In this document: positions 411 through 19,696 of the stretch, piece by piece
Position numbering within the stretch: position 1 is the first letter of the stretch
Layout: each line of letters begins with the position of its first letter
IMG/VR virus record: IMGVR_UViG_3300011253_000692
Location: 1 to 32,098 of that record
Strand: one strand, 5' to 3'
DNA from: a virus
DNA: 32,098 nucleotides
Notes under the pieces: model-generated
Seen by the model: the letters and a program-made list of their open reading frames with translations, nothing else
Told to the model about the DNA's origin: nothing
Databases searched by the model: none
Made by a program: the position numbers and the translations under genes

Positions 411-890
411 GTGTTAGAGGAATTATGTAAACATGATGAGTTTTTTAGAAGTGTTGCTATTAACATAAGCAAAGACAAAGCACTAGCTGATGATTTAGTT
501 CAAGAAATGTATTTATTAATACACGAATGTAATAATATTAAAAACCCTAAGTATTACGCAATACAAATAATAAAAAATCTATTCTTAAAAGAGTGTAAAA
601 GAACTAAGGCTATATCAATAGAAGATATAAACCAAGATTTTAAAGACGATGTAGATTATTTTAGTCCAGATGATAGCGAACAAGAAATAATAGATAAGGC
701 TAAAAGATTAAGTTATCCAAAAAAAGACTTGCTTATTGAAAGTTACGACAAAAGTTTGCGACAAATACAAAGCGAGTTTAAAATAGGTTACATGAGTACT
801 AACAGAGAACTAAAAAAAGCTCGTAAGGAAATACTAGGAGAAGACTATAAAAAACTTTATAAAAATAAAAGACGTAAAAGACATGGTTAA
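411..890 (+). CDS. RNA polymerase sigma-factor-like protein
   Basis: This is a 159-residue protein. Residues 20-65 look like sigma-70 region 2: KALADDLVQEMYL matches the region 2.1/2.2 helix that binds core polymerase, followed by an Ile/Lys-rich helix. Residues 100-142 have the helix-turn-helix character of region 4 (LIESYDKSLRQIQSEFKI). The C-terminus is very basic (KNKRRKR). The size fits an ECF-type two-domain sigma factor, although the sequence is divergent. Translation would start at GTG 411, because no ATG lies in frame nearby. It opens the terminase operon and overlaps the next gene by 8 nt. It may direct host polymerase to the late-gene element seen at 3062, 11065 and 13789 (inference). 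A related small DNA-binding protein of terminase operons remains possible. Confidence 0.6.
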   Translation: MLEELCKHDEFFRSVAINISKDKALADDLVQEMYLLIHECNNIKNPKYYAIQIIKNLFLKECKRTKAISIEDINQDFKDDVDYFSPDDSEQEIIDKAKRLSYPKKDLLIESYDKSLRQIQSEFKIGYMSTNRELKKARKEILGEDYKKLYKNKRRKRHG

Positions 891-1673: not shown

Positions 1674-3062
1674 TTGTTAAGCAATGAAGAGAAAGTATTA
1701 AAAGTAGCCTGTGAAGATAGTCTATTATTTTTTGCTAGATACATATACAAAGAAAACCATAATCGAAAGTTTATTTTATCAAAACATTTTGAAGAGATTG
1801 CAAAGTTTCTTGAGGATGTTTTTTTAGGTAAAATAAAAAGAGGTATTATAAATATGCCTCCAAGATATGGAAAGACAGAACTTGTTATTAAGATTTTTGT
1901 AAGTTGGTGTTTAGCAAAAGTAAATTATTCTAAATTTATACACTTATCTTATTCAGATGCTTTAGCCTTAGATAATTCAGCACAAACAAAAGAGTATATT
2001 CAAAGTGATGCGTTTCAGAAGTTATGGCAAATGGAACTAAAAAAAGACGCTCAATCCAAAAAGAAATGGTTTAACGAGTTTGGAGGTGGTATGTATGCTA
2101 CTGCTAGTGGTGGTGCAATTACAGGTTTTGGTGCAGGTGTAGATAATACACATGATTTTAGTGGTGCAATACTTATAGATGACCCATTAAAGCCAGACGA
2201 TGCTTTTAGTGAAATAGAAAGAAACAAAGTAAATAATAGATATAACAATACAATAAGGTCTAGAACTAACAAAGACGATACTCCTATTATAGTTATCATG
2301 CAAAGGCTACATGAAGACGATTTAAGTGGTTTCCTTTTAAATGGTGGTAGTGGTGAACACTGGGAACATTTATGTTTACCTGCTTTAAACGAATTTAACG
2401 AGCCTTTATATCCTCATAAACATACATTTGAGCAACTAGAAAGCATAAGACAAGCAGACCGATATACGTTTGCAGGACAATACCAACAAACACCTGCACC
2501 AGATGAGGGTGGAGAATGGAAAAAAGAATGGTTTGATATTATAGATAAGTCTGAAATACCTTTAAACTCTTTAAGGTGGGAGTTAATAATAGATGGAGCA
2601 TATACTAAAAACACAGCAAACGACCCAACAGGCTATCAAATAGGTGCAAAATACAAAGACGATTATATTATACTTTCATCAGTAGATAGATATTTAGAGT
2701 TGCCAGAACTTTTAAAAGACATTCCTAATTATATTACTTCTATTGGAGTTAATATATCTTTAATACTAATAGAGCCTAAAGCAAGTGGTAAGTCTTTAAA
2801 ACAAATGATAAGCAATAGTACTAGATTTCCTGTTGCAGAAATTAAAACAGATTTTGTAAATAGTTCTAAGATAGAAAACGTTAGAGCCTCTTCAAATTTT
2901 GTAGAGGGTGGTCGTGTTAAACTTGTTAAAGGTAGTTGGAATGATGCATTTTTAAATCAAGTTGGAACTTTTCCTAATGCTAAACATGATGAGCATATAG
3001 ATTTAACTTGCTACGGAATAGAAAGACACTTAATAAATACTTTCGGAATAGATGTAAGATAG
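1674..3062 (+). CDS. terL: Terminase large subunit (packaging ATPase and nuclease)
   Basis: This 462-residue protein starts at TTG 1674, directly after the preceding stop codon. The ATPase domain shows a Walker A variant PPRYGKTE (62-69), Walker B ILIDD (166-170) and a coupling motif VIMQRLHEDD (207-216). The RNase H-like nuclease domain has the expected acidic residues in IIDGAY (Asp 307), LIEPKASGKS (Glu 367) and AKHDEHID (Asp 439/443). The enzyme drives DNA into the prohead and cuts it to length. All key motifs are intact and the length is normal. The use of TTG is notable but there is no in-frame ATG before the conserved LLFFARY segment. Confidence 0.95.
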   Translation: MLSNEEKVLKVACEDSLLFFARYIYKENHNRKFILSKHFEEIAKFLEDVFLGKIKRGIINMPPRYGKTELVIKIFVSWCLAKVNYSKFIHLSYSDALALDNSAQTKEYIQSDAFQKLWQMELKKDAQSKKKWFNEFGGGMYATASGGAITGFGAGVDNTHDFSGAILIDDPLKPDDAFSEIERNKVNNRYNNTIRSRTNKDDTPIIVIMQRLHEDDLSGFLLNGGSGEHWEHLCLPALNEFNEPLYPHKHTFEQLESIRQADRYTFAGQYQQTPAPDEGGEWKKEWFDIIDKSEIPLNSLRWELIIDGAYTKNTANDPTGYQIGAKYKDDYIILSSVDRYLELPELLKDIPNYITSIGVNISLILIEPKASGKSLKQMISNSTRFPVAEIKTDFVNSSKIENVRASSNFVEGGRVKLVKGSWNDAFLNQVGTFPNAKHDEHIDLTCYGIERHLINTFGIDVR

Positions 3063-3090
3063 TAACAAAAAGACTTTTTTTTACTCTTAA
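3062..3090 (+). promoter_or_regulatory. Late promoter-like element, copy 1
   Basis: GTAACAAAAA (3062-3071), 11 nt, ACTCTTAA (3083-3090), then 4 nt and ATG 3095. The same two boxes with the same 11-nt and 4-nt spacings occur at 11065 and 13789. The GTAAC to CTCTTA distance resembles the -35/-10 spacing of ECF sigma promoters. It marks the first transcription unit after the large terminase. Confidence 0.6.
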
Positions 3091-3094
3091 ATAT

Positions 3095-3700
3095 ATGGAA
3101 GTAATTATACCAGAAAATATATCAGATATAACTTTAGAGCAGTTTCAAAAGTTTACTATTTTAAACGATAGAGAAATTGAAGATGAACACGAATACAACA
3201 AGCGTGTGGTTTCTATATTTACAAACATTAAATACAACCAGTCAGACAGAATTTCTAAAAAAGATTTTGAAAGTATCATTTTAGATATACTAAACGCTTT
3301 AAATAAAGAAGTTAGTTTTAGTAATACTTTTAAAATTGGAGACGTAGAATATGGTTTTATTCCAAACTTTGATGATATAACAGCCAAAGAGTTTTTTGAC
3401 TTGAATCTTTACAGGATTGACGATATTAAAAACTATCATAAGTTAATGGCTATTTTATACAGACCGATAACTAAAAAAGACGCTTTTAATAATTATAGTA
3501 TTGAGCCATACAACGGAACAGACAAGCACAGCGATAAAATGAAATATGCGCCTATGAATATCGTTAATGGATGCCTTGTTTTTTTTTCGAGTTTAGCCAG
3601 CGAATTGTCAAATCATACCCTGAAATATACAGCAGTACAACAAGCGAGGGAACTAGCGCAAGCGACTACTTCGATAAGTGGAAGTGGTATGCAACTTTAA
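3095..3700 (+). CDS. Tail assembly chaperone, zero-frame product
   Basis: MEVIIPENISDITLEQFQKF opens a protein of 201 residues. The frame is open further upstream, but ATG 3095 is chosen because it sits 4 nt after the conserved element at 3062-3090. Position between terminase and tape measure, plus the frameshift arrangement, fits the gpG/gpGT class of tail assembly chaperones, which coat the tape measure while the tail tube polymerises. A run of nine T at 3579-3587 lies at codons 162-165. Downstream of it, the -1 frame (to 3843) has the more protein-like sequence, whereas the zero-frame tail (SSLASELSNH onward) is short and could be the minor or spurious end. Confidence 0.7.
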   Translation: MEVIIPENISDITLEQFQKFTILNDREIEDEHEYNKRVVSIFTNIKYNQSDRISKKDFESIILDILNALNKEVSFSNTFKIGDVEYGFIPNFDDITAKEFFDLNLYRIDDIKNYHKLMAILYRPITKKDAFNNYSIEPYNGTDKHSDKMKYAPMNIVNGCLVFFSSLASELSNHTLKYTAVQQARELAQATTSISGSGMQL

Positions 3701-3843
3701 ACGAGTTAGCACATGGCAATATATTAAATTTTGAAAAAATATTAAATTTAAACGTACACGAAATTCACACGTTTTTAGCGCATAAAATAGATAGGGCTAA
3801 ATTAGAAGAGGAGTTAAGAAAACCAAATTTAACAAGATTATGA
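3571..3843 (+). CDS. Tail assembly chaperone, -1 frame extension (gpGT-like)
   Basis: This frame is not expected to start at its own ATG 3571 but to be reached by a -1 shift in the T run at 3579-3587. The extension reads FSQRIVKSYPEIYSSTT and then DYFDKWKWYATLNELAHGN, followed by a helical stretch ending KPNLTRL. The Trp/Tyr-rich segment resembles the W-containing helix that often follows the frameshift in tail chaperones of Bacteroidota phages. The stop (TGA 3841-3843) overlaps the next start in an ATGA. The overlap with the zero frame is about 115 nt. Confidence 0.6.
   Translation: MPCFFFEFSQRIVKSYPEIYSSTTSEGTSASDYFDKWKWYATLNELAHGNILNFEKILNLNVHEIHTFLAHKIDRAKLEEELRKPNLTRL
3579..3587 (+). 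other. Slippery T9 run, putative -1 ribosomal frameshift site
   Basis: In the zero frame the codons are GTT TTT TTT TCG, so 3580-3586 forms a T TTT TTT slippery heptamer. A -1 slip gives GTT TTT TTT TTC GAG and continues to a stop at 3843. The fusion would have 164 + 85 = 249 residues. A homopolymer sequencing error is the alternative explanation. Confidence 0.6.
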
Positions 3844-4304
3844 ACCAATATTCTGAATTACTACAATACATTTATAACCTTGCTATCGCAGACCCTTTTA
3901 TTAATACTGTTACGCAAGGAGATACAGATAAAATAGATTTAGACAAAGGCAATATATTTTCTTTGCTTCACATCGTTATAGATAGTGGTTCGTTTAGTAA
4001 TGGCTCTACTGTTTTATTTAGTGTAAGTTTAGACTGTTTAGCCCTTAGAAATATAAATAAAGCAGAAGTTATAAGCGATAAGTTTTGGAAGCAAGATAAT
4101 GAAGTAGATAACCACAACGAAACGTTAGCGAGTTTGAACAAATTGTGGACTATAATGTACAGAGACTTTGAAAGAAGAAACATAACAGCGAGCGAAAACC
4201 CAACACTAGAAAAAATATCTTTTGCAGGTAAAAATTTATACGATGGTTGGTCTTTGTCTTTTGAAGTAGAACTGCCAAACACAACGCTTAATCTATGCGA
4301 GTAA
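3840..4304 (+). CDS. Tail-associated conserved protein (probable tail completion)
   Basis: This protein has 154 residues. It contains TQGDTDKIDLDKGNIFSLLH (25-44), a pattern I associate with a protein family found in the tail modules of flavobacterial phages, and ends in beta-rich sequence FEVELPNTTLNLCE. It starts by ATGA overlap with the chaperone gene and overlaps the following tail-completion gene by 10 nt, so translation is probably coupled. The precise role is unknown; a head-tail joining or tail-terminator function is an inference from position. Confidence 0.6.
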   Translation: MNQYSELLQYIYNLAIADPFINTVTQGDTDKIDLDKGNIFSLLHIVIDSGSFSNGSTVLFSVSLDCLALRNINKAEVISDKFWKQDNEVDNHNETLASLNKLWTIMYRDFERRNITASENPTLEKISFAGKNLYDGWSLSFEVELPNTTLNLCE

Positions 4305-4807
4305 AAGACGTGTTAAATACGTTCGGTAAGCGTGTAATAAAACAAAGTAGAACAAATCTAACTAAGAAGAAAAAAAACGCTTCTAAGGGCTTATATAATA
4401 GTTTAAAGTATAACTTAAAAGTAAGTCAAAACAAATACGAATTGTATTTTGAAATGGAAGATTATGGTTCATTTATAGATAGAGGTGTTAAAGGTGTTGG
4501 AGGAACAAAAGCAAACGGAAAAAGGTGGCAAAAAAAGATTGTAACGAACAACGATTTTAAATATAAAAATAAAAAACCTCCTGCAAAAGCATTTGATAAG
4601 TGGATAGTAAGACGAGGTATTGCAAATAGAGACGCTGGAGGTCGTTTCACAAGTAGAAAAAGTACCTCGTTTGCTATCGCCAACAGTGTATATCATACAG
4701 GATTAGAAACGACTAACTTTTTTACTAAACCTTTAGAGAATGAATTTAATAAACTGCCAGACGATTTACTTAATGGAATGTTAGGCGAAATAGATATAAT
4801 ACTATGA
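4295..4807 (+). CDS. HK97 gp10-like tail completion protein
   Basis: This protein has 170 residues with a basic N-terminal half. DYGSFIDRGVKGVGG (residues 56-70) corresponds to the 'YGxFVExG' turn typical of gp10-like neck/tail-completion proteins. A later segment, FAIANSVYHTGLETTNFF, fits the family's second half. Such proteins sit at the head-tail or tail-terminator junction and stabilise the finished tail. The gene is tightly packed: 10-nt overlap upstream and ATGA overlap downstream. Confidence 0.65.
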   Translation: MRVKDVLNTFGKRVIKQSRTNLTKKKKNASKGLYNSLKYNLKVSQNKYELYFEMEDYGSFIDRGVKGVGGTKANGKRWQKKIVTNNDFKYKNKKPPAKAFDKWIVRRGIANRDAGGRFTSRKSTSFAIANSVYHTGLETTNFFTKPLENEFNKLPDDLLNGMLGEIDIIL

Positions 4808-5568
4808 TAAAAATATTATCACCATACTACATAAATATACCTTATGAAAGCCCAGTAACAGGCTTAGTATGTTCAGAGTTTACTCTAAAACTATATGTAT
4901 GGAATGGTCTTAAAACAGATATTCCAATAGATGCTAGTTATGAGATTACAAAGACAAATCCAGAGGGATTAACAACATCTACGCAAATAGATATATCAAA
5001 TCTTATAAGCACTTTTTTAGAATTCGAGCCTAAAACAGTAACAGACAACGAAATAATTAACGGAGATAATCAAGTATGGTATAGTGTAAGCGTATTTTAC
5101 ACAACAGAAAACACTAGTGAACTTTTAACGCCACAACTTCAAGAAACTAAACTAGCTTTAAAGGGTTATAATTACGGAATGAGTGGAGAAAATGCAGAAA
5201 CTCCAAGCGATAAAATACTAATGCAAGCGAGAGAGTTTAAAGTTGCTAGAGATAGCAAAGTAATAATACCTATTGAAATAGAAGAAAGTGTACCGCCTGT
5301 ACCTAGCATAGTTATAGACGCAGTAATTATAGTAAATAACTTTGATTATCAGATATATTTTACAGCGATAGGCACGTATAGTCAATTCTTCGTATCAATA
5401 ACAGCAGATGTCGGAGATACTACACCTCGTTTAGTTTACTTAAACGGAACAACAAGCCCACAAAATTTAGAGATAACAGAAATTAATGGTGTTACTGTAA
5501 AAATGTTTGGGTACGACACAGCTAGTGGAACTAACGTAACATCTAATACATTAAACGTAGCAACATGA
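4804..5568 (+). CDS. Virion structural protein, beta-rich (tail module)
   Basis: This 254-residue protein has strongly beta-type sequence, rich in Thr/Ser/Val/Ile. It opens MIKILSPYYINIPYESP and is organised around short beta strands, with a proline-rich hinge near residues 160-167 (ESVPPVPS) that separates two halves. The C-terminal half looks like an immunoglobulin/fibronectin-type sandwich (inference only). It lies between tail completion and baseplate-like genes and is joined to both by ATGA overlaps, so a tail or baseplate component is likely. I do not recognise a specific family. Confidence 0.6.
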   Translation: MIKILSPYYINIPYESPVTGLVCSEFTLKLYVWNGLKTDIPIDASYEITKTNPEGLTTSTQIDISNLISTFLEFEPKTVTDNEIINGDNQVWYSVSVFYTTENTSELLTPQLQETKLALKGYNYGMSGENAETPSDKILMQAREFKVARDSKVIIPIEIEESVPPVPSIVIDAVIIVNNFDYQIYFTAIGTYSQFFVSITADVGDTTPRLVYLNGTTSPQNLEITEINGVTVKMFGYDTASGTNVTSNTLNVAT

Positions 5569-6140
5569 TAACTATTATATCTTATCCAAATAACACGATT
5601 AACGAGAGTATAGCAGTACCTACAAGTATTGATAGTGCTGAACTTGTAAAGTACATTACAGTTAACGTAGAAGACGCAATAAATGAGGACTTTATAGAGG
5701 TTACTTATAATAGCGAGACTATCACATTACTAATTACGGATGAGTGCAGATACACTACATACGATATTAATTTTGTGAATAAAGAGGGCGCACAGCAAGT
5801 CTTTACAATGTTTAAAAAGCGAACCGATAATATAAGTATCACAAACGAAAAATACGAGAGTTTCAGAGGGCAACCATTACAAGGTAATCACCAATTTATA
5901 ACGTATAACACGCAAGCAAAAAAAGATTTTAAATTAAATAGTGGTTTTATTAGCGAAGACTTAAACGATACTATCACGCAAATAATGTTGAGCGATAGAT
6001 TATGGATAAGAGAAAACGACATATTAACTCCGATTATTTTAAAAGGCAAAAGTTTAAGTTATAAAACTAGACAAAACGAAAGGCTAATTAATTACGAGTT
6101 AAGTTTTGAATACGCTTTTAATGAGGTTAATAATATATGA
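5565..6140 (+). CDS. Distal tail/baseplate-like structural protein
   Basis: This 191-residue protein contains ECRYTTYDINFVNKEGA (residues 61-77) and a C-terminal segment TRQNERLINYELSFEYAF. Both are typical of a conserved structural protein in tail modules of Bacteroidota siphoviruses, usually followed by the large baseplate protein, as here. The probable role is distal tail or baseplate assembly, by position. It overlaps both neighbours by ATGA. Confidence 0.6.
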   Translation: MITIISYPNNTINESIAVPTSIDSAELVKYITVNVEDAINEDFIEVTYNSETITLLITDECRYTTYDINFVNKEGAQQVFTMFKKRTDNISITNEKYESFRGQPLQGNHQFITYNTQAKKDFKLNSGFISEDLNDTITQIMLSDRLWIRENDILTPIILKGKSLSYKTRQNERLINYELSFEYAFNEVNNI

Positions 6141-8476
6141 TAACAGCGATATACATAAATAACGATAGACTAGACTTGTTTCAAGATGAAAGTATTACTG
6201 TACAATCCTCTATTATAGACAGTCAAGATATTACTAAAAACACAGGAGACTTTACAAGAGACTTTACTGTACCTGCAAATGATAATAATAACGAAATATT
6301 TAAACATTATTATAATGCGACTATTGACAATTCTTTCGATGCAAGAACAAAAGTAGACGGAAAAATAGAACTTTCTGGACTACCTTTTAAGCGTGGTAAG
6401 TTTCAATTAAGGAAAGTATTAGTAAGAAGCAATAAGCCTTATGCTTACTCAATTAGTTTTAGTGGTAACGCTCAAGATATAAAAACAAAAGTAGGCAATG
6501 ATGAATTAACTGATTTAGATTTAACAGCGTTTGACCACGATTATAATAGTGCTAATGTAAAGTTAGGTTTAACAGATAGTTTGTTTAATGATGATATAGT
6601 TTATAATTTGTTAGCAAAGAAGCAACTGTACTATAATTCAGTTGCGTCAGACCAAACAAACACAAACACTTTAAGCAATATTGCATATAATAGTCCAAGC
6701 CAAACAAATGGTATTTTATGGAATGATTTAAGACCTGCCATAAAACTAAATAGAATACTTGATGCAATAGAGACAAAGTACGATATTAATTTTACAAATG
6801 ATTTCTTTGGAAGACAAGAGTTTGATAAGTTGTATTTATGGCTTAACAAAGACAAAACCAATGATATAGGCGTCACAAGTCAAAGAGTAGATTTTAATGG
6901 TGGTGATAGTGATAATGTAGATTTTACAACAGACATTGGAACGTTTAGTACTTATAATCAAAGTTATTGGGTACTAAGGTTGTTAGTCACGCCTTTAGTT
7001 GGTTTTGAAGATATACCTTATAAAATAAAATGTTTTAGAAATAATGAATTATTAGGTGTTTTAGAACGCACAGGAACGGCAGTATACCAACAGGTTTTGA
7101 TTAGTCAAAACTTTATAAACGAAGTATATTTTGAGATTGAAGTGTCCAATCCTTTTTCATACACAACAGAATTAAAACAAACTAAAAACTCTTTTGTGTT
7201 TGGAATACCAAATGAATATTATTATACAACGTCATCAGCAAACACAATTACATCAGAATTAAGTATAAAGAATAATTTACCTAAAATAAAGGTTATAGAC
7301 TTCTTAAAAGGCTTATTTAAGATGTTTAAATTAGTAGTTAATACGAAAGGCTCAAATACTATTTATGTAAACGATTTAAACAGTTATTACGCACAAGGAA
7401 AGTTAGTAGATGTTACAAAATATGTAGATTTTGAGAGTGTAGATATTGAGCGTGGAAAAATATTAAAAGAAATAAATTTTAATTTTGAAGAGCCTAAAAC
7501 TATTTTAGCAGAACAGTTTTTAGAGAATACAAATATTGCTTATGGTGATGAGGAGTTAAAGTTAGAAGATGCAAGTGGACAACCTTTAGAGGGCGAAACT
7601 TTAGAATATGAAGTACCTTTTGAGCAGTTTGTTTACGAAAGACTAAACGACACTACGACAAATGACGTTACAAATGTACAATATGGCGCAATAATAGACC
7701 AAGAGTTAAAGAGTGTAAACCCTAAAACAAACATTTTTTATAATGTATCACAAGACTTAGGCACTAATACAATCGCTTTAATAAACGATAGTAACACAAT
7801 AGAAGAGATTACAATATTAAACACACCATCGCATAGCATAGACTTCTTAAATATGCCTTTTTGCACAACTTTTGGAAGTGAGTTCAGTACATGGAATGGA
7901 AACTTAATGAGTAACACGCTTTATAATAATTATCATGCAGACTTTATAAAAAGTATTTTCAATATAAAAAGAAGAAGTTTTAAATTCAAGGCTTTATTAC
8001 CATTAAACATAATAACAAGTTTACAACTAAATGACGTTATAAAAATAAGGGAGGACTATTACAGGATTGATAACTACCAGACCGAAATAACAAAAGGAGA
8101 AACTACTCTTAATTTAATAAATAGTTTTGATAATAATTTAGTCGGTTTCAATGCAAGTCAAACAATATTTATAACGGATAGCGAAGCAAACAGACAAAGC
8201 ACTTATATAAATAAAGTTAGTAATAATACAACTACTTTAATAGATAATGGTTTTGGCACAAGTTGGGTTTCTACTTCTTACAATGGCAATATTTTAAATA
8301 TAGATTTAGACGAAAATACAACGCTTTCCGATAGGACTATTACAATACAATTACTAGAAGTCGATTTAAAAAAGACTATTGATTTAATTATAATACAAAA
8401 CAGAAAAAAAACATATAGAGCAGATAGCACTTTTATAACAACAGATACAAATTTAATAACAGCAGACAATGGCTAG
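6137..8476 (+). CDS. Large tail/baseplate structural protein
   Basis: This 779-residue protein has an N-terminus (SQDITKNTGDFTRDFTVPAN, residues 29-48) that is characteristic of the large tail protein family of Bacteroidota phages: a 'DiTK...fT..f.lP' stretch followed by NNEIFKHYYNA. It is rich in Asn and Thr with long beta regions. It likely forms the baseplate hub or tail tip that carries the fibre proteins. The last residues overlap the next gene by 8 nt. No enzymatic motif was seen. Confidence 0.65.
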   Translation: MITAIYINNDRLDLFQDESITVQSSIIDSQDITKNTGDFTRDFTVPANDNNNEIFKHYYNATIDNSFDARTKVDGKIELSGLPFKRGKFQLRKVLVRSNKPYAYSISFSGNAQDIKTKVGNDELTDLDLTAFDHDYNSANVKLGLTDSLFNDDIVYNLLAKKQLYYNSVASDQTNTNTLSNIAYNSPSQTNGILWNDLRPAIKLNRILDAIETKYDINFTNDFFGRQEFDKLYLWLNKDKTNDIGVTSQRVDFNGGDSDNVDFTTDIGTFSTYNQSYWVLRLLVTPLVGFEDIPYKIKCFRNNELLGVLERTGTAVYQQVLISQNFINEVYFEIEVSNPFSYTTELKQTKNSFVFGIPNEYYYTTSSANTITSELSIKNNLPKIKVIDFLKGLFKMFKLVVNTKGSNTIYVNDLNSYYAQGKLVDVTKYVDFESVDIERGKILKEINFNFEEPKTILAEQFLENTNIAYGDEELKLEDASGQPLEGETLEYEVPFEQFVYERLNDTTTNDVTNVQYGAIIDQELKSVNPKTNIFYNVSQDLGTNTIALINDSNTIEEITILNTPSHSIDFLNMPFCTTFGSEFSTWNGNLMSNTLYNNYHADFIKSIFNIKRRSFKFKALLPLNIITSLQLNDVIKIREDYYRIDNYQTEITKGETTLNLINSFDNNLVGFNASQTIFITDSEANRQSTYINKVSNNTTTLIDNGFGTSWVSTSYNGNILNIDLDENTTLSDRTITIQLLEVDLKKTIDLIIIQNRKKTYRADSTFITTDTNLITADNG

Positions 8477-9002
8477 ACAAAATATAGGAATAGGAACAAC
8501 AGCAAACGATGGTACAGGTGATGTATTACGTGATGCGTTTCAAAAAACAAATCAAAACTTTACAGAATTGTATGGAATTACAGGATGGGAAAGTAAATAC
8601 GAGGCGAGAGTTCAATCACTAACAGCATCAAATAATTTGATAACAATTTCAGGAACATCAGAAACAAATGGAGGTTTGACTTTATTAAATTCTGATGGTA
8701 AAGTTGTGCCTATAAATTTAAACGATGTTTTATCTATTGATTTTGGTTGTACTGTAATTACTCCATCAGGTACAGACAATTACATACATTTAAAATTTGT
8801 AGTTAATAGCGTTGTTTATAGAGCAATTACGATACCATTATTAAAAGGCAGAGATAATGATGATGCTATAAGTTTAAGTGCAAGTATGCCAGTAGGTAGT
8901 GATTTTAATACCAATGGAATGGAGGTATATATTGAGCCTAATATAGCCTTAGATATTAAAGATAAGTATATAAGTGTAAACAGAACACATTTAGGATTAT
9001 GA
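8469..9002 (+). CDS. Tail fibre/tip protein with NIGTTANDGTGD head motif
   Basis: Residues 5-37 (NIGIGTTANDGTGD... LRDAFQKTNQNFTELY) form a short motif that recurs at the N-termini of phage tail fibre or spike proteins, where it mediates attachment. The remaining 140 residues are beta-rich, ending YISVNRTHLGL, and could form a trimeric tip domain. The protein is 177 residues, short for a receptor-binding fibre. It overlaps the baseplate protein by 8 nt and the next small ORF by ATGA. Confidence 0.65.
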   Translation: MARQNIGIGTTANDGTGDVLRDAFQKTNQNFTELYGITGWESKYEARVQSLTASNNLITISGTSETNGGLTLLNSDGKVVPINLNDVLSIDFGCTVITPSGTDNYIHLKFVVNSVVYRAITIPLLKGRDNDDAISLSASMPVGSDFNTNGMEVYIEPNIALDIKDKYISVNRTHLGL

Positions 9003-9151
9003 TAACAGATATTATAAACCTACTCCAAAAAGCAGATTTTTACGGAGCAGGAGAATATACGGAAATTGCAAAAGGTAAACATCAATACGTTACTAATTAC
9101 AAAGGGTTTAAAAGAAAAATAAAAAGATTATGGCTATCAAGAAAACAGTAA
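8999..9151 (+). CDS. Small basic protein between fibre and tape measure
   Basis: This 50-residue ORF starts at ATG 8999 in an ATGA overlap with the upstream stop and runs 22 nt into the tape measure gene. The sequence MITDIINLLQKADFYGAGEY is followed by a strongly basic C-terminus (KRKIKRLWLSRKQ). No family was recognised. The overlap pattern matches the other coupled genes of this operon and fills an otherwise empty 127 nt, which supports it being real. Confidence 0.5.
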   Translation: MITDIINLLQKADFYGAGEYTEIAKGKHQYVTNYKGFKRKIKRLWLSRKQ

Positions 9152-11055
9152 TAATAGATGTAAACGTAGACAAGGGTATAAAAGACACCGAAAAATTAAA
9201 AGGTAATGTAAATGACTTATCTAAAGAATTTGATAAAACTAAAGGCAAATCTAGTTCGGCTTTTGGTGCTTTAGACAAGATGACAGGAGGAGCAATATCT
9301 AAATTAAAAGGTTTAAAAGGTTCTTTAGGTGGTGTGTCTTTAGGTTTTAAAAGCGTTGGAACAGCAATAGCAGCCAGTGGAATTGGTTTATTAGTTTTAG
9401 TTATTGCAGCAATAATACAGGCTTTTAAATCTAGCGAAGCAGGACAAAATAAGTTTGCAAAATTAATGGGAGTTATCGGTAGCGTAGTTGGAAACGTAAC
9501 CGATGTGCTTTCAGATTTAGGTGAGTTTGTTATAAATCTTTTTAGTGGAGATGGAGAAGCTATAAAATCAGCAGAACAATTTGGTAAAAAGATTTTCGAT
9601 GTAGTTGGTTTACCTATAAAAAATATTATAGATATTGTTAAAACAGCTAGCAAAGTATTAGGCAGTCTATTTAGTGGTGATATTGAGGGAGCAATAGACG
9701 ATTTAAAAAATGGTATATCAGATGTAAAAGGAAATTTTACAGAGGCAAAAGACGCTATAAATTCAGCAAAAGACTCACTTATAGAATTTGGAAAAGAAGC
9801 ATTAAGAGAGGCAGAAATAGCTAGTCAAATAGCAGAAGCTAGAGCAAATGCAGACAAAATAGATAGGTCTTTAATCGTAGAAAGAGCAGAGGCTGATAGA
9901 AAAATAACAGAATTAAGAGAAAAAGCATCTCGGAAAGACTTATATAGTTTAGCAGAAAGAAAAAAAGCCTTAATAGAAGCGTCTAAAATAAATGAGGATA
10001 TAACTGCAAAGGAAATAAAAAGCGCAGAAATAAGAAGAGACGCTATAATAGAAGAGAACAAATTATCTAAGTCTAATAAAGACGCTTTAAATGCAGAGGA
10101 AGAAGCTAAAGCTAAGGTTATTGAATTAGAAACTAAAAGACTAAACCTGCAAAAAAGACTAGGTACTGAATTATCTTCTATAAATGAACAACAAAGAGCA
10201 GAGGCAGAGGCTAGATTAAAAGCTAAACAAACAGAAATAGACAAAGAAAACAAGATAGAGCAAGATAAGGCAGATAAAGCAGAAAAAAAAGCCCAAGAAG
10301 ATTTATTAAAAGCCCAAGAAGATGAAAGAAAAACACTTCAATCCATTGAAGATTTAGAGAATGAATTTTTAGAGTCTAAACTAGAGAAACAGCAACTAGA
10401 ATTAAATGCAGTAAGAGAAAAATATTTCGGTATAATTGAAGCGGCAAGAGAAGCAGGACAAGAAACTTTAATTTTAGAAGAAGCCCAACAATCGGAAATT
10501 GATGCAGTCGAAAAAAAGTATGCAGATATAAAAGATGCAAGAGATAAAAAACAAAAAGACGAAGAGGAAAAAAGAGACCAAGCTGTTGCAAATGCAAGAA
10601 TAAGCACAGCAAACACAACAGCAAATCTAATAGCAGAACTAGCAGGAAAAGAAAGCGCAGTTGCAAAAGGTATAGCAGTAGCACAAACCACAATAGATAC
10701 ATATAAAGGTGCTACTTCGGCTTATTCATCTTTGTCAGGTATTCCGATAGTAGGACCAGCGTTAGGAGCGGTAGCAGCAGGAGCAGCAATTGCAGCAGGT
10801 GTAGCAAATGTAAAAAAGATTTTATCCACAGACCCTATAAGTAAGAGTGGAGCAAGCCCAACAACTTCTGGAGGAGTAGGTGGAGCATCGCAACCAAGCG
10901 CACCAAGTTTTAATTTAGTACAAGGCACAGGCACAAATCAAATAGCAGAAAGTATAGGCAACCAAAATAGACCTATTCAAGCGTATGTAGTTAGTGGTTC
11001 TGTTACATCAGCGCAAGAATTAGATAGAAACATTATAGAGAGCAGCACCATATAA
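9130..11055 (+). CDS. Tail tape measure protein
   Basis: This is a 641-residue protein. After a short N-terminal domain there is a Gly/Lys-rich stretch and a hydrophobic segment SVGTAIAASGIGLLVLVI (75-92), typical of tape measure proteins of Bacteroidota siphoviruses. A second hydrophobic region lies at about 100-170. Residues 215-490 are a long charged coiled coil (Glu/Lys/Ala-rich). A further hydrophobic, Ala/Gly-rich segment (GPALGAVAAGAAIAAG, about 543-558) precedes a Gly/Ser-rich tail. The protein sets tail length and passes through the host envelope during DNA entry. The length is modest, implying a relatively short tail for a siphovirus. Long reverse-strand open frames within the coil are shadows of its Ala/Lys/Glu codons. 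Confidence 0.9.
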   Translation: MAIKKTVIIDVNVDKGIKDTEKLKGNVNDLSKEFDKTKGKSSSAFGALDKMTGGAISKLKGLKGSLGGVSLGFKSVGTAIAASGIGLLVLVIAAIIQAFKSSEAGQNKFAKLMGVIGSVVGNVTDVLSDLGEFVINLFSGDGEAIKSAEQFGKKIFDVVGLPIKNIIDIVKTASKVLGSLFSGDIEGAIDDLKNGISDVKGNFTEAKDAINSAKDSLIEFGKEALREAEIASQIAEARANADKIDRSLIVERAEADRKITELREKASRKDLYSLAERKKALIEASKINEDITAKEIKSAEIRRDAIIEENKLSKSNKDALNAEEEAKAKVIELETKRLNLQKRLGTELSSINEQQRAEAEARLKAKQTEIDKENKIEQDKADKAEKKAQEDLLKAQEDERKTLQSIEDLENEFLESKLEKQQLELNAVREKYFGIIEAAREAGQETLILEEAQQSEIDAVEKKYADIKDARDKKQKDEEEKRDQAVANARISTANTTANLIAELAGKESAVAKGIAVAQTTIDTYKGATSAYSSLSGIPIVGPALGAVAAGAAIAAGVANVKKILSTDPISKSGASPTTSGGVGGASQPSAPSFNLVQGTGTNQIAESIGNQNRPIQAYVVSGSVTSAQELDRNIIESSTI

Positions 11056-11064
11056 TTAAAAAAT

Positions 11065-11093
11065 GTAACAATAACAAAAAAATTAACTCTTAA
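11065..11093 (+). promoter_or_regulatory. Late promoter-like element, copy 2
   Basis: GTAACAATAA (11065-11074), 11 nt, ACTCTTAA (11086-11093), then 4 nt and GTG 11098. One base differs from copies 1 and 3 in the upstream box; spacing is identical. It fills the 42-bp gap between tape measure and protease genes and fixes GTG 11098 as the likely start. Confidence 0.6.
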
Positions 11094-11097
11094 TTAA

Positions 11098-12231
11098 GTG
11101 AAGACATATCAAGCGACATACATTCCTAATAAAACCGATGGAGTTTTTGGAATTTCTTTAGTTGAAAATCCTGCAATGGAGGGCTTATTTATAGCCTTAT
11201 CTAAAAAGCAAGAAATAAAACTAGCAGAAGTAAACAAAGAACAACGTATCTTAATGGGTTTAGTTTTAGAACCTAACAAGCCTATTTACAGAAACCAAAA
11301 TGGTGAGGAGTTTAATATCGTGTTTAACGAAGATACTATAAAAGAATTATCATATAATTTCTTTAAAGCAGGTTACCAAAAGAATAGCACAATAGAACAC
11401 GAAAGTAAAATTAACGGAGTTACTTTTGTTGAAAGTTGGATTGTAGAAGATACCAAAAACGACAAATCTAATGCTTTTGGTTTTAGTTATCCTAAAGGCT
11501 CATGGGTTGCAACTATGAAAGTAGATAGCGATGAGATTTGGAACGACTATGTAAAGAGTGGTAAGGTTAAAGGGTTTAGCGTTGACGCTATGATAAACTT
11601 AGAGGAAATAAATTTAAAATCAAATATAACAATGGCAGAAGAAAAAACTTTAATAGATTTAATTAAAGAACTACCTGAAAAAATAGCCTTGTCTTTTAAA
11701 CCTAAAGAGGTTGAAGAAGTAGAGGTTAAACTAGGTATGATTAAAACCGATGATGGTTTAGAAATTCATTTCGATGGAGAAGAATTAAAAGAGGGCGACA
11801 TGGTTTACTCTTTAACACCAGAGGACGAAAAAGTACCTTTACCACAAGGCGAATACGTTACCGAATTAGGTGTTATTTCAGTAGATGAAAACGCAACAGT
11901 AGTATCTATAAAAAGTGCAACAGAAGAAGAAGCACCAGTAGAAGAAGCACCAGTAGTTGAGCCAATGGCAGAAGACACACCAACAGAAGCACCTAAAGGA
12001 GATTTAGGAGACGAATTAGAAAAGGCTATTAAATCTATTATGATTAAATATAGTGAGGAGTTTAACTCTAAACTTAAAACTATCAAAACAGAATTAAGCA
12101 AAGAAAACGAAACTTTAAAAGCACAGGTTTTAGAATTATCAAAAGCACCTGTAAAAAAAGCAATTTCAACACCAACACAAGCGACAACAAAAAAAGGAAG
12201 ATTAACACAATTTTTAAACAATAAAATATAA
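11098..12231 (+). CDS. XkdF-type prohead protease with C-terminal scaffold
   Basis: This 377-residue protein starts at GTG, 4 nt after a conserved element. The N-terminal 165 residues match the XkdF/S78-like prohead serine protease fold: STIEHE (97-102) with the putative catalytic His 101, VESWIVED (111-118) and KGFSVDA (158-164) with the putative Ser 161. Residues 180-377 are acidic, with a Glu/Pro/Ala-rich linker (about 275-300) and then a helical, coiled-coil segment, as expected of a scaffold. The protein would line the prohead, then digest itself and any delta domain. An in-frame ATG at 11632 (residue 179) in good context could yield a separate scaffold of 199 residues. Confidence 0.85.
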   Translation: MKTYQATYIPNKTDGVFGISLVENPAMEGLFIALSKKQEIKLAEVNKEQRILMGLVLEPNKPIYRNQNGEEFNIVFNEDTIKELSYNFFKAGYQKNSTIEHESKINGVTFVESWIVEDTKNDKSNAFGFSYPKGSWVATMKVDSDEIWNDYVKSGKVKGFSVDAMINLEEINLKSNITMAEEKTLIDLIKELPEKIALSFKPKEVEEVEVKLGMIKTDDGLEIHFDGEELKEGDMVYSLTPEDEKVPLPQGEYVTELGVISVDENATVVSIKSATEEEAPVEEAPVVEPMAEDTPTEAPKGDLGDELEKAIKSIMIKYSEEFNSKLKTIKTELSKENETLKAQVLELSKAPVKKAISTPTQATTKKGRLTQFLNNKI

Positions 12232-13164
12232 ATGGCAACAACAGTAACAGTAAATAGTAATTACAACGGAACGGTAGCAGGAGATATTATCGGAAAAGCT
12301 TTTAAAGAAGCAGACACATTAAGGCTAGGTTTAGTAAATGTACTACCAGACATCGACTACAAGGTATCAATTAGAAAAATATCTTACGGTAACGGAAGAC
12401 AAGACTACGCTTGTGGATTTACACCAGCAGGCTCTGTAACACTTTCAGAAGTGGCTTTAGTACCTAAGAAAATTAAAAATGAATTTGATATTTGTAAAGA
12501 AGATTTGCGTCAGATTTGGAGTTCTGCAACTATGGGCTTTTCAGCACATAACGACAATATGCCAGCAGATGTAGAACAAGCATTAATAGCAGAAGTTTTA
12601 GCAGATACAGCAGAGGCAACAGACAGCGATATTTGGGTAGGAGATGCAACAAATGATGGTGAGTTTGATGGCTTTACTACTCTTTGGGCAACTGATGGCG
12701 ATATTATAAAAGCAAATAACGGATTAGTTCCAATAGGTGCAGCTATTACAGAAGCAAACGTTGAGAGCGAATTAAAGAAAGTATTAACAGCGATACCAGT
12801 AGCGTTAAGACGCAAAGACTTAAACGTTGTTGTAAGTCCTGATGTATTTCAAGCATACAACTTTTATTTAGTTTCTAAAGGTATTGCAAACGATGGTACA
12901 GCAGACGACAAACAAGTAAAATTTGGTAAATACACAATTACAGAAGTAAACGGATTACCTGATAATACTATTGTAGTTTATGAGACTAAAAACTTAAACT
13001 TTGGGACAGGACTTTTATCAGACCACAACGAGTTAAGAATTAAAGATATGGATGAGTCGGATTTAAGCGGTCAAGTTCGTTATAAAATGGTTTACACAGC
13101 AGGAGTACAATATGTATATCCAACAGAGATTTTATGGTATGTAAGTACTGTAACACCTGCATAA
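12232..13164 (+). CDS. Major capsid protein (HK97 fold)
   Basis: This 310-residue protein starts directly after the protease/scaffold stop codon. The N-terminus is a typical capsid arm (MATTVTVNSNYNGTVAGDI). ALRRKDLNVVVSPDVFQAY (191-209) and the C-terminal VRYKMVYTAGVQYVYPTEIL are characteristic of the major capsid proteins of Bacteroidota siphoviruses. No N-terminal delta domain is apparent, consistent with scaffold being supplied by the upstream fusion. It is followed by a strong terminator at 13177-13203. Confidence 0.85.
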   Translation: MATTVTVNSNYNGTVAGDIIGKAFKEADTLRLGLVNVLPDIDYKVSIRKISYGNGRQDYACGFTPAGSVTLSEVALVPKKIKNEFDICKEDLRQIWSSATMGFSAHNDNMPADVEQALIAEVLADTAEATDSDIWVGDATNDGEFDGFTTLWATDGDIIKANNGLVPIGAAITEANVESELKKVLTAIPVALRRKDLNVVVSPDVFQAYNFYLVSKGIANDGTADDKQVKFGKYTITEVNGLPDNTIVVYETKNLNFGTGLLSDHNELRIKDMDESDLSGQVRYKMVYTAGVQYVYPTEILWYVSTVTPA

Positions 13165-13176
13165 TAATATTAATAT

Positions 13177-13203
13177 AAAGGGTTGTTAATTCAGCCCTTT
13201 TTT
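13177..13203 (+). terminator. Intrinsic terminator after the capsid gene
   Basis: AAAGGGTTG (13177-13185) pairs with CAGCCCTTT (13192-13200), 9 bp with one G-T wobble and a 6-nt loop, followed by a T run to 13203. It would cap the protease-capsid transcript. Confidence 0.85.
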
Positions 13204-13220
13204 AAAACATTTAAAATAAT

Positions 13221-13733
13221 ATGGCTTGTGATATAACAACAGGAAGAGAAAGACAATGTAAGACCAGTTTAGGAGGGGCTAAAAAAATATGGTTTTATAA
13301 CTATGTAGAAGACCCTTTTACAGTTGATACTGGTGAAGCAACAGGAATAAACCCACTTTTAACAGAGGTGTTTGAGTTTGAAATTGAGGGAGACGGTAAC
13401 ACGTTAGACCAAAATTTTATAGGCGAAAGACAAAACGGAACATCAGTCAATACTCAAACTTTAACTGCGATTTTCAAAAAACAAGATGCAAGAGCTTCTG
13501 CTAATTTTGATAGTTTAGTTAAAGGGCAACCTCAAGCAGTAGTACAAGATAGAAACGGAATCTATCACGCTTTAGGAATAGACGATGGCATGGATGTAAC
13601 CATTACTGCATCAACAGGAGGCGCAAAAACAGACTTAAACGGTTACACAGTAGTAGCAACTGCAACAACAGGAGATTTAGCACCTCTATTAGATAATGCA
13701 ACTGTAACAGCCTTTTTAGCTTTAGTAGCATAA
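13221..13733 (+). CDS. Major tail tube-like protein
   Basis: This 170-residue protein begins MACDITTGRERQCKTSLGGA, and the segment from ITTGR to GGAKKI is typical of tail tube proteins of Bacteroidota phages. Pro-poor, beta-rich sequence follows, with LVKGQPQAVVQDRNGIYHAL (92-111) and NGYTVVATA near the C-terminus. It is paralogous to 16332-16892 (shared I-T-x-G...C-K-x-S-L-G-G start, D-x-N-G-x-Y-x-x-L-G and L-N-G-Y-T). It lies alone between two terminators, as expected for an abundant structural protein. Confidence 0.75.
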   Translation: MACDITTGRERQCKTSLGGAKKIWFYNYVEDPFTVDTGEATGINPLLTEVFEFEIEGDGNTLDQNFIGERQNGTSVNTQTLTAIFKKQDARASANFDSLVKGQPQAVVQDRNGIYHALGIDDGMDVTITASTGGAKTDLNGYTVVATATTGDLAPLLDNATVTAFLALVA

Positions 13734-13755
13734 TAAAATAATTTCTTTAGATTTT

Positions 13756-13787
13756 AAAGCCTTGTATTTTCGTACAGGGCTTTTTTT
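13756..13787 (+). terminator. Intrinsic terminator after the tail tube gene
   Basis: AAAGCCTTGTA (13756-13766) pairs with TACAGGGCTTT (13773-13783), 11 bp with one G-T wobble and a 6-nt loop, followed by seven T (13781-13787). The late promoter-like element of the next gene begins 2 nt later. Confidence 0.9.
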
Positions 13788-13788
13788 A

Positions 13789-13817
13789 GTAACAAAAACA
13801 CGATTTTAAACTCTTAA
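13789..13817 (+). promoter_or_regulatory. Late promoter-like element, copy 3
   Basis: GTAACAAAAA (13789-13798), 11 nt, ACTCTTAA (13810-13817), then 4 nt and ATG 13822. It sits immediately downstream of a strong terminator, exactly where transcription must restart for the portal operon. That context is the best argument that the element is a promoter. Confidence 0.7.
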
Positions 13818-13821: not shown

Positions 13822-14151
13822 ATGAAAGTGTTTGACATTAATATACAAGAGCATACTATAATTTTAATACCTAGATTTTATCCTACTTCTACAATTAATG
13901 TAAATGTATATAAAGAGGGTAGTAATACTGTATATAATAAAAATTTAAGTCCTGAAAATTACATTATTAATAATGGTTATTTAAGTTTTATTTTAAATGA
14001 AAGTAATTTTATAGAACTACTTTGTAATAATTGTAAATACGAGATTAAAATTACAGAGAATGATAATGTAGTTTATAGAGGTAAAGCGATATCAACAAAC
14101 CAAAATACAGAAGACTACAAATTAACAAAAGACGTTTATATTTATGAGTAA
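13822..14151 (+). CDS. Beta-rich conserved structural-module protein
   Basis: This 109-residue protein has short alternating beta strands and ends NNCKYEIKITENDNVVYRGK followed by a Tyr-rich tail. The 'ng.viYRGk' ending is familiar from small proteins next to portal genes in Bacteroidota phages, where the function is unknown. It is the first gene of the unit controlled by the element at 13789 and overlaps the portal gene by 8 nt. Confidence 0.6.
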   Translation: MKVFDINIQEHTIILIPRFYPTSTINVNVYKEGSNTVYNKNLSPENYIINNGYLSFILNESNFIELLCNNCKYEIKITENDNVVYRGKAISTNQNTEDYKLTKDVYIYE

Positions 14152-15853
14152 TAAAAAAAGCGACATAAGGCTTATTCAAATGAATAACTATGTAAGACCT
14201 AAGTTAGACGAAAATAAGTCTAGAGATTGGGTTTTAAATGGCAAAAAAAATGAGTTTTATCAGTACATAATTGATAGAAATAATGGAAGCCCAACAAATT
14301 CTGCTATAAACAACTCTTATATAAACTTAATATATGGTAAAGGTATTTATTTAAAAAGAGGTTCAGCAAATGATTGGCTCGCTTTTATGACTGCTTTTAG
14401 ACCAAAAGAAATAAAAAAAATAGTAGCAGATTTTCAAATATTTGGCGAGGCTTCTTTTCAAAAGGTTAAAGCAAAAGGTAGAAACGAGTTTCCTTATTTT
14501 TATCACTTACCAAAAGAAAGAGTAGTGCCACAGATAGCAAATGAAGATGAGGAAATTGAAGGCTATTGGTATTCTAAAAATTGGGAAAAACACAGTTTAT
14601 CAGAAAACAAGCCAGAGTATTTTCCTGCTTTTGGTACTTCTAATGAAGAGACAGAAATATATTGCATAAAACCTTACAGAGCAGGCAAAGAATATTTTGC
14701 AGACCCTGATTATCTTGCAGGCTTACCATACGCTGAAATGGAGGAGGAGATAAGCAACTACTATGTAAGTCACATAAAAAATGGTTTATCATTTGGTTAC
14801 ATTATTAATATACCAGATGGCAATAGTTTAAGTCCAGAAGAAAAAGACGATTTAGAGCGTAAAATAAAATCTAAATTAACAGGCTCTAGTAATGCTGGAA
14901 AGTTTGTATTATCTTTTAATGGTCGTGATGCAGAAATAACAGTAACACCTTTACAAGTTAATGATGCTCATAAACAATGGCAATATTTAACACAAGAGGC
15001 AAGACAACAACTATTAACGTCTCATTTATGTACATCAAGTAGTTTAGTAGGTGTAAACACTACAAGTGGATTTAGTTCAACAGCAGACGAAATGGATATG
15101 GCAGAAAGCCAACTAATGAAGCGTGTAATTGCACCAAAACAAAACTACATTATAGAAGCCTTAGAGGATGTTGCAATGTTTATAGGTCTTAATATAGAAT
15201 TAGGATTTAAGCCACTTACAGAAGCGCAAAACACTATTAAAACAGAAATGAATAGCCATGTTTGTTGTAGTGATGAAAAAAAAAACGATATTGTAATTAA
15301 TGCAGATAGTTTAATTGCTTTAGGAGAAGATATAAGCGAGGATTGGGAGTTGTTAGACGAAAGAGCTTGTGAAGAAATAACATTAAAAGAAAGCGACTTA
15401 AATACTGTTTTCGAGTTTGCACAAACACCAAAGACTACTAATAAAAAAGACGTTCAAGATACAAGTTTGTTTAAGATACGATACAGATATAAAGGTAATC
15501 CAAACGGAGAGCGTGATTTTTGTAATAAAGTAATACAAGCTAATAAAGTGTATAGAAGTGAAGACTTAAACGCTAATTATAATTATAATGAGGACTTTGC
15601 ACCAAGTGGAAAGAGTAGTTATAATATATTTTTATACAAAGGAGGAGTTAATTGTAAGCATTTTTGGCAACGTGAGATATATTTAAAAAAAGGAAACGAC
15701 AAAATAAGTGTTAATAAGGCTAGAAAAATGATTTTAGAACTTGAACCAAGCGAAAGAAAAGACGCAATGTGGGAAAAAAACGACAAAAAAGTAGCACAAG
15801 TTGCTGAAAAGCAGAACAATTATTGGAGTTTAAAACCTAATTATAGAGCATAA
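14144..15853 (+). CDS. Portal protein with extra C-terminal domain
   Basis: This is a 569-residue protein. Residues 1-370 have portal features: an N-terminal segment with NSAINNSYINLIYGKGIYL (46-64), a clip-like region with EISNYYVSHIKNGLSFGY, and TTSGFSSTADEMDMAESQLM, typical of the wing/crown region in Bacteroidota phage portals. The dodecameric portal is the DNA channel at the capsid vertex. After a Cys-containing linker (HVCCSDEKK, about 370), residues 430-530 form an additional domain with FKIRYRYKG and GGVNCKHFWQREIYLKKG. I have seen it in head-module proteins of such phages, but its function is unclear. The portal lies after the capsid gene and far from terL, which is unusual. Confidence 0.85.
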   Translation: MSNKKSDIRLIQMNNYVRPKLDENKSRDWVLNGKKNEFYQYIIDRNNGSPTNSAINNSYINLIYGKGIYLKRGSANDWLAFMTAFRPKEIKKIVADFQIFGEASFQKVKAKGRNEFPYFYHLPKERVVPQIANEDEEIEGYWYSKNWEKHSLSENKPEYFPAFGTSNEETEIYCIKPYRAGKEYFADPDYLAGLPYAEMEEEISNYYVSHIKNGLSFGYIINIPDGNSLSPEEKDDLERKIKSKLTGSSNAGKFVLSFNGRDAEITVTPLQVNDAHKQWQYLTQEARQQLLTSHLCTSSSLVGVNTTSGFSSTADEMDMAESQLMKRVIAPKQNYIIEALEDVAMFIGLNIELGFKPLTEAQNTIKTEMNSHVCCSDEKKNDIVINADSLIALGEDISEDWELLDERACEEITLKESDLNTVFEFAQTPKTTNKKDVQDTSLFKIRYRYKGNPNGERDFCNKVIQANKVYRSEDLNANYNYNEDFAPSGKSSYNIFLYKGGVNCKHFWQREIYLKKGNDKISVNKARKMILELEPSERKDAMWEKNDKKVAQVAEKQNNYWSLKPNYRA

Positions 15854-16344
15854 TGGCAGAATTTTTATTTATAACACCAGAAGAACTAATACAAGGCACT
15901 ATTATAGGTGGCAACGTAGACGTAGATAAGTATATTACAAGCGTAGCAAACGCTCAAATACAAGTTATTGAGCCACTTTTAGGCACAGAATTATACGATA
16001 AGATTAAATTAGACGCTCAAAACGATACTTTAACAGGTTTATATGAGACTTTATACAATGATTTTGTCAAGCCTATAACGAAAGCAGAAGCAACAGCCGA
16101 ATATATAGAAATCAGTAGTTATATTTTAGATAATGGAGGGCTTTATAAACACCAAAGCGATAACGCAGAGATAGTAGATAAGGAAGAAACGCAATTTTTA
16201 GCAGGAAAATACCACGCTTTGGCTCAAATGTTTGTACAACGTTTTGAAAAATGGATATGTAACAATGAAATTGAGGAATATAAAACAACCCAAGACGAAG
16301 TAAACGCTCAAAATATTAAATTAACAGCAGGTTGGAAGTTATAA
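15853..16344 (+). CDS. Head-tail connector protein (DUF6712-like)
   Basis: This 163-residue protein begins MAEFLFITPEELIQGTIIGG, followed by NVDVDKYITSVANAQIQVIE and PLLGTELYDKI. This pattern (first-helix 'NvD.d......AQ...I.p.LGt.Ly') is that of head-tail adaptors in Bacteroidota phages. It would form the ring beneath the portal. It shares one base with the portal stop (TAATG) and overlaps the next gene by 13 nt. Confidence 0.7.
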   Translation: MAEFLFITPEELIQGTIIGGNVDVDKYITSVANAQIQVIEPLLGTELYDKIKLDAQNDTLTGLYETLYNDFVKPITKAEATAEYIEISSYILDNGGLYKHQSDNAEIVDKEETQFLAGKYHALAQMFVQRFEKWICNNEIEEYKTTQDEVNAQNIKLTAGWKL

Positions 16345-16892
16345 CAAGTGGATATACTAGAAAATGTAAAGATAGTTTAGGAGGATTAGATAAAATTTAT
16401 CTATTTTCTTTTGCTAAATATCCACGCTCGCAAATAGTAACTAACGAAAACGTTTTGACAAGTTTTCCAAACACGACTATTTATGCTTTTGAATACGTTG
16501 GAAACCCTGTTTTTGATAATAAAGGTAATGAAGATGCAGGAGGTAAATATTACGATGAGGATATTAGTTTTCAATTAGCAAAAATAAGCGACAATTTTAG
16601 TATATCTAAACTTTTAAAGAAAGATTTAAGAGCGATAATAAAAGATAAAAACGGTTATTATAGAATTTTAGGTCTTTATAATGGTTTAGAATGTGAAAGT
16701 ATCAAAGCAAGTGTAGGAACGTCTAAAAACTCTTTAAATGGATATACAATAGCCTTAAAAGGACAAGAAGAGCAAGAGGCTTTATATATTAATAACTTAG
16801 AAGATGCAGGTTTTACAGAAGATGGGTTTTATTTATTACAAGAAGATGGATTTTATTTATTACAAGAAAATGATTTTAAAATATTATTATAA
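16332..16892 (+). CDS. Second tail tube-like protein (paralogue of 13221-13733)
   Basis: This 186-residue protein starts at TTG 16332, 13 nt inside the connector gene. It has the same plan as 13221-13733: EVITSGYTRKCKDSLGGLDK at the start, LKKDLRAIIKDKNGYYRILG in the middle and NSLNGYTIAL near the end. Sequence identity looks low outside these blocks. The C-terminus carries a repeated EDGFYLLQ (see 16818-16889). It could be a tail tube variant, tail terminator or tube-decorating protein. Which of the two paralogues is the main tube subunit cannot be decided from sequence alone; the copy with its own terminators is the better candidate. Confidence 0.65.
   Translation: MEVITSGYTRKCKDSLGGLDKIYLFSFAKYPRSQIVTNENVLTSFPNTTIYAFEYVGNPVFDNKGNEDAGGKYYDEDISFQLAKISDNFSISKLLKKDLRAIIKDKNGYYRILGLYNGLECESIKASVGTSKNSLNGYTIALKGQEEQEALYINNLEDAGFTEDGFYLLQEDGFYLLQENDFKILL
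16818..16889 (+). repeat. 24-bp tandem repeat encoding EDGFYLLQ
   Basis: Two nearly identical 24-bp units (16818-16841 and 16842-16865, one base different) are followed by a decayed third unit (16866-16889, ENDFKILL). Since 24 is a multiple of three, the repeat is read in one frame. Similar 'EDGfyLLqE' tails occur on many phage tail proteins. Confidence 0.8.
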
Positions 16893-17917: not shown

Positions 17918-17987
17918 ATAAAAAAATTATTATAAATTACACATGGGATTACAAGTATTCGCAAACGAGGTTAAGGATTAAGCTTTA

Positions 17988-18841: not shown

Positions 18842-18843
18842 CC

Positions 18844-19610: not shown

Positions 19611-19667
19611 AATTATATTGGTAAAAAAAATATTTTTATGTTAAATTAGTTTTTATAATGGTTTTTT

Positions 19668-19682: not shown

Positions 19683-19696
19683 AATTTTATTAAATT

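Follow-up and report, generated by a model that had tools for sequence, protein, structure and literature searches.

Three late gene blocks of a phage of Bacteroidota type are probably (roughly 0.77) opened by dedicated promoters for a phage-encoded ECF sigma factor, ORF 411-890, which would direct the synthesis of leaderless or nearly leaderless mRNA. The proposed promoter is a two-part element, GTAACAAWAA-N11-ACTCTTAA-N4-start, present in the window (the whole stretch of DNA analysed, 32,098 bases) as exact plus-strand copies at 3062-3090, 11065-11093, and 13789-13817. The spacings of N11 and N4 are identical in all three copies, as an earlier note had claimed, and the start codons that follow ACTCTTAA at N4 are ATG 3095, GTG 11098, and ATG 13822. 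The second site is the only one with GTG, which is preceded by A instead of T.

With up to three mismatches allowed, the pattern has four matches in the window, a number reached in none of 100 shuffles (shuffle mean 0.55), and the reversed pattern has none. The fourth match, at 8084, carries three mismatches, lies inside a coding gene, and is not counted among the sites. Either box taken singly is not above chance frequency in the window; the signal is carried by the paired spacing and not by the single boxes. A matrix of 32 columns, built from 54 sites of other phages and none from the window, with the start codon left out, ranks the three sites at the top of the window with scores of 21.4, 19.2, and 16.6. 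The next window position scores 9.1, and the best score in 20 Markov copies of one strand is 15.4. The upstream box contains the AAC expected of ECF-type promoters, and TAACAA or near variants occur in nearly all sites of the wider set. The downstream box is more variable with respect to the CGT or GT of typical ECF −10 elements, position −11 being G in 36 of 47 phages and either A or C in the remaining 11; the window box ACTCTTAA has C at this position and reads CTC, without CGT. The Bacteroidota housekeeping −7 box, TAnnTTTG, is absent from all three sites, in keeping with what had been proposed. A scan of the window for TTG-N-TAnnTTTG returns a single plus-strand match, at 25049; its three minus-strand matches all fall within genes on the plus strand. 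The plus-strand match (25049-25079, TTG-N20-TATATTTG) falls in a gap between early-region genes and is a candidate early promoter.

Positions of the predicted promoter boxes, the sigma factor gene, and the late blocks in the window
Feature	Coordinates	Strand	Evidence and remarks
ECF-type sigma factor, 159 aa, GTG start	411..890	+	Pfam, NCBIfam, fold, orthologues; likely reader of the element
−35-type box, site 1, GTAACAAAAA	3062..3071	+	Pattern scan, matrix
−10-type box, site 1, ACTCTTAA	3083..3090	+	Predicted +1 at A of ATG 3095; register and T/purine statistics
First late block	3095..11055	+	phrog_32199 gene 3095-3700, tail-type genes, tape-measure-like ORF 9130-11055; ORFs, PHROG families
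−35-type box, site 2, GTAACAATAA	11065..11074	+	Pattern scan, matrix
−10-type box, site 2, ACTCTTAA	11086..11093	+	4 nt before GTG 11098; pattern scan, matrix
Second late block	11098..13733	+	Prohead protease, capsid-type gene, 13221-13733; ORFs, families
Intrinsic terminator	13756..13787	+	12-pair stem 13756-13783, then T-run; ends second block
−35-type box, site 3, GTAACAAAAA	13789..13798	+	Pattern scan, matrix
−10-type box, site 3, ACTCTTAA	13810..13817	+	Predicted +1 at A of ATG 13822; pattern scan, matrix
Third late block	13822..20407	+	13822-14151, portal 14144-15853, further same-strand genes; 3′ limit guessed from gene order

Each site heads a same-strand block of structural (late) genes. 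The second block begins with the prohead protease (11098-12231, Peptidase_S78_2) and the capsid-type gene (12232-13164), and the portal protein of the third belongs to phrog_33693 (E 5.5e-140). The T-run of the terminator between these blocks stops one base short of the 13789 copy, so that this copy directly follows an intrinsic terminator. The label of tail chaperone previously given to the gene at 3095 is not supported by a named family; the gene falls in phrog_32199, for which no function is listed. An ORF in another frame, 3571-3843, overlaps the end of this gene by about 130 nt, and a frame-overlap layout of that kind is known from programmed frameshifting of tail assembly genes. For the small terminase-like ORF, whose listed start is GTG 1335, translation probably begins at ATG 1377 (MDGRKNNKG...). 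The matching gene of relatives has a late-type site 25-30 nt upstream, and none scores there in the window.

The earlier note overlooked the protein that probably reads the element, the product of ORF 411-890. Its sequence matches Pfam Sigma70_r2 (PF04542; E 1.8e-6, 28.1 bits, cut-off 24), and the NCBIfam model TIGR02937, sigma70-ECF, spans residues 7-141 with E 1.5e-8, below its curated cut-off; the Pfam search gives no region-4 match. An AlphaFold model made from a 40-sequence alignment (mean pLDDT 84, pTM 0.44) contains two helical domains, residues 2-64 and 88-142, and the pTM value is read here as two domains loosely placed. The leading PDB matches of the model are mostly ECF sigmas, and regions 2 and 4 are each matched well separately. 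Region 2 superposes on that of SigR over 63 residues at 1.5 Å, residues 85-143 on the −35 domain of SigC over 59 residues at 1.9 Å, and residues 84-149 match E. coli σE region 4 bound to −35 DNA. The protein thus has only regions 2 and 4 in its 159 residues, with neither 1.1 nor 3, the composition of group 4 (ECF) sigmas. ECF sigmas are also found by sequence profile search. As a single query the protein finds no relatives; a scan with the sigma alignment yields 264, of which 80 were kept, and none were found in the species-genome collection. The PHROGs entry for the family (phrog_31712) gives no function. Some 0.8 kb separates the sigma gene from the large terminase gene downstream. A cognate anti-sigma encoded beside an ECF sigma gene is common, not universal, and the product of the neighbouring ORF, 883-1326, has no Pfam or NCBIfam match.

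A predicted promoter of this two-box, start-codon-fused design recurs in dozens of related phages despite their divergence. A portal search provides 58 loci. In the close group (47-61% portal identity), TAACA precedes the pre-portal gene in 20 of 21 contigs examined, mostly 32 nt before the ATG, and the element also precedes many protease orthologues. Sigma orthologues are found in seven of the eight fetched contigs longer than 28 kb, and all seven have a site before the phrog_32199 orthologue; the eighth long relative, G012, has no detectable sigma, other genes in its place, and no site before the three genes. Sigma-bearing contigs retain TAACAA as the −35 box. The second box is nearly constant within a phage and differs between phages, reading CGTTTTAAT, CGTTTATAT, AGTTATAAT, or TGTTATTAT in relatives and ACTCTTAA in the window. 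The check that had been suggested, for the pattern upstream of orthologous genes in relatives, is therefore borne out for its place and its distance from the start, but not for the second box. An exact-pattern scan of IMG/VR gives 38 matches, most of them one recurring coding repeat, and none in the start-codon register of the window with a long reading frame. The exact 18 bases are therefore specific to the window phage rather than conserved.

A second contig sample, chosen by the phrog_32199 gene instead of by the sigma, bears on co-occurrence. Among the contigs in this sample that carry the sigma, 22 of 29 score positive directly before the phrog_32199 gene, and the other seven have no scored site at that position. 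The site is also present in five of seven fragments (incomplete contigs) in which no sigma was detected; five fragments of this kind include at least 3.5 kb of upstream sequence. In one contig, L240 (1-4640), the late site is present and the sigma position of close relatives holds kinase-like and oxidoreductase-like ORFs; its sigma gene may lie at another locus. Good promoter-matrix matches also occur inside the sigma gene of one clade (L134 4459, L137 5642, L139 6214, L141 1283). The matching DNA codes for conserved residues (NDFYVIIVIRN), and these matches were discounted as probably due to chance, the alternative being an internal promoter. A further −35 variant is seen in L225 (5265), L248 (4371), and L258 (3174), in which GACATTA replaces TAACAAA ahead of a CGTTATA box in the same ATG register.

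Comparison of sigma and promoter sequences suggests co-variation between the −35 bases and region 4, and between the −10 bases and region 2. The strongest correlations of bases −33/−32 are with region-4 columns; for −12/−11, the highest-ranking columns fall in region 2. Mutual information over all columns is confounded by kinship, and only this pattern, in which each box is paired with its own sigma region, is used here. Among phages with ATAACAA, 18 of 20 have Gly at residue 128, the start of the predicted recognition helix, as against 0 of 19 among those with GTAACAA. On a weak tree made from region 2 only, each trait (residue 128 and the −35 base) changes about five times, and the five independent pairs taken from this weakly resolved tree are unsupported; the co-variation of residue 128 with the −35 box is therefore only suggestive.

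The position of the element relative to the start codon points to leaderless transcripts. The ATG is at offset 0 in 56 of 119 distinct sites, at 1 in eight, at 2 in five, and at −1 in two; none of the 119 has an ATG at offset 3-6. The promoter thus lies at a fixed distance that places the predicted +1 on the start codon. T directly precedes the ATG in 84% of promoter genes versus 40% of 911 other genes. When the last three promoter columns are omitted from the matrix, sites scoring at least 17 without a near ATG still carry T (18 of 25) and a purine (24 of 25) at the corresponding promoter positions. Bacterial transcription usually starts with a pyrimidine at −1 and a purine at +1; as the T/purine step is kept at leadered sites, +1 is predicted at the A of the ATG. 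Other genes of these phages keep A at −12/−11, where A promotes initiation in Flavobacterium johnsoniae (PMC6847099); promoter genes do not, because the −10 box occupies those positions. The proposal of leaderless or nearly leaderless mRNA in the earlier note agrees with both the fixed ATG register and the T/purine step, as a prediction from sequence. A smaller group of sites, such as those for the protease of G001, G016, and L050 and for the small terminase-like gene of G014 and others, lies 12-30 nt from the start codon, so leaderlessness would be usual, not obligatory. For comparison, 5.5% of mapped mRNAs in F. psychrophilum are leaderless (PMC9723704).

These observations suggest a mechanism in which host RNA polymerase carrying a host sigma would transcribe the early genes, and the phage sigma, once made, would bind the host core polymerase. 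Region 4 would contact GTAACAA and region 2 the ACTCTTAA-type box, redirecting the polymerase late in infection to the three structural operons at 3095, 11098, and 13822. Transcription would then begin on the start codon itself, at the A (ATG) or the G (GTG), and each operon's first gene would be translated from a leaderless or nearly leaderless mRNA, as follows from the distance between box and start. The earlier proposal of a late promoter with ECF-like spacing is supported in silico by same-position elements in relatives, a phage ECF-type sigma, and the co-occurrence of the two.

The closest competing explanation retains the promoter and its sigma and places the start a few bases away, or invokes mRNA processing, to give a short leader. 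Initiation by ECF holoenzymes can indeed vary by 1-2 nt, and the ATG is shifted by −1, 1, or 2 in 15 of 71 near-ATG sites. The lack of any ATG at 3-6 and the fit of T at −1 and purine at +1 to the A of the ATG, in a step that persists at leadered sites, make this explanation improbable. Less probable again, and in our view very unlikely, is that a host ECF sigma reads the sites and the phage sigma has another role. Flavobacteria do have more than one ECF sigma, an ECF motif that includes a CGT box is present in F. psychrophilum (PMC9723704), and some fragments carry the site without a detected sigma. Against a host reader, the −10 box diverges phage by phage yet is constant within a phage, the boxes appear to co-vary with the sigma, and the one complete-looking relative without the sigma, G012, is also without the sites.

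Placement directly before start codons could also reflect a translation signal acting in the mRNA, or an operator for another late regulator, in place of a promoter. This is the least likely of the three, with very little probability left to it: the element stands at block starts, once right behind a terminator; it displaces the A-rich −12/−11 context of other genes; sites of relatives 12-30 nt from start codons keep the T/purine step; and a sigma gene accompanies the element. Late promoters recognised by the phage sigma remain the preferred reading, although the missing CGT in the window −10 box, the GTG start preceded by A, the fragments that have a site and no detected sigma, and the seven sigma-bearing contigs with no scored site before the phrog_32199 gene count against it.

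The design may extend beyond the lineage. In a distant portal group (25-29% portal identity) the trained matrix finds no match, and the group has an ATG-fused two-box motif of its own, TCAAATAAA then TCTATTATATAnT before the ATG, at 14 sites in one register; some members encode weakly similar sigma-like proteins (L070, L073), from which, together with the motif, the wider reach is suggested. Examples of this unrelated-looking motif, TCAAATAAA-N-TCTATTATATAnT-ATG, are at L066 4314 and 7511, L085 3898 and 7070, and L089 252 and 3474, among others, and in a further group the gene lies ~13 nt downstream.

A likely role is thereby gained for phrog_31712, a family listed without function, and sequence alone predicts how a phage lineage common in the environment organises its late transcription. 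Dozens of naturally diverged sigma-promoter pairs provide material on how ECF sigmas choose their boxes. Whether phages whose hosts lack Shine-Dalgarno leaders rely on leaderless mRNA for the proteins they need most also becomes a testable question, and isolated relatives are available in P12024S and P12024L, which grow on a marine flavobacterium. A broader idea, which we consider rather doubtful, is that a whole Bacteroidota phage lineage uses a dedicated sigma, with promoters fused to start codons, to shift its virion genes to leaderless translation, such that late messages would bypass leader-dependent host initiation in a phylum with few leaderless mRNAs, and sigma and boxes would co-evolve into many distinct pairs.

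Promoters of this kind are already known, since phiEco32 and 7-11 (Kuravirus-type) likewise encode ECF-like sigmas with matching middle or late promoters before structural genes, and experiments are reported to show that the sigma of phiEco32 binds the polymerase of its host (PMC7881722; PMC4331800). Their promoters consist of a single motif, tAATGTAtA (in 7-11, a TGATGT core with TATA), without a TAACAA −35 box (PMC4331800), unlike the window sites with GTAACAAWAA and ACTCTTAA. Start-codon fusion is not described for these phages, which infect Enterobacteria and have C3 podophage virions (PMC7881722; PMC4331800). Host ECF promoters of Flavobacterium (motif SM6, F. psychrophilum) share the CGT-type −10 box of many relatives, but they serve host genes and are mostly leadered (PMC9723704), and the window box reads CTC. 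The late promoters of the giant phages AR9 and phiKZ are also short AT-rich motifs, AACA-N6-TA/G in AR9 with the start at its last base; these are read by a phage multisubunit polymerase, and AR9 leaders are 26-491 nt long (PMC5312081). The isolated Nonlabens phages P12024S and P12024L (Inhavirus) have the same gene order, a Sigma-70 region 2 protein (gp33) ahead of the terminase, and at least six ATG-fused two-box sites of nearly the same geometry. They differ in the −35 box (AAAACAAA), the −10 box (CGTTAATA), a diverged sigma region 4, and site placement, the phrog_32199-type gene having no site. The open literature yielded no transcription study of these two phages and no description of the present promoters, subscription papers being outside the search. 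Relative to the known systems, the features that look new are the lineage itself, a promoter of two boxes whose −10 element varies, and fusion to the start codon in a phylum where mapped leaderless mRNAs are few.
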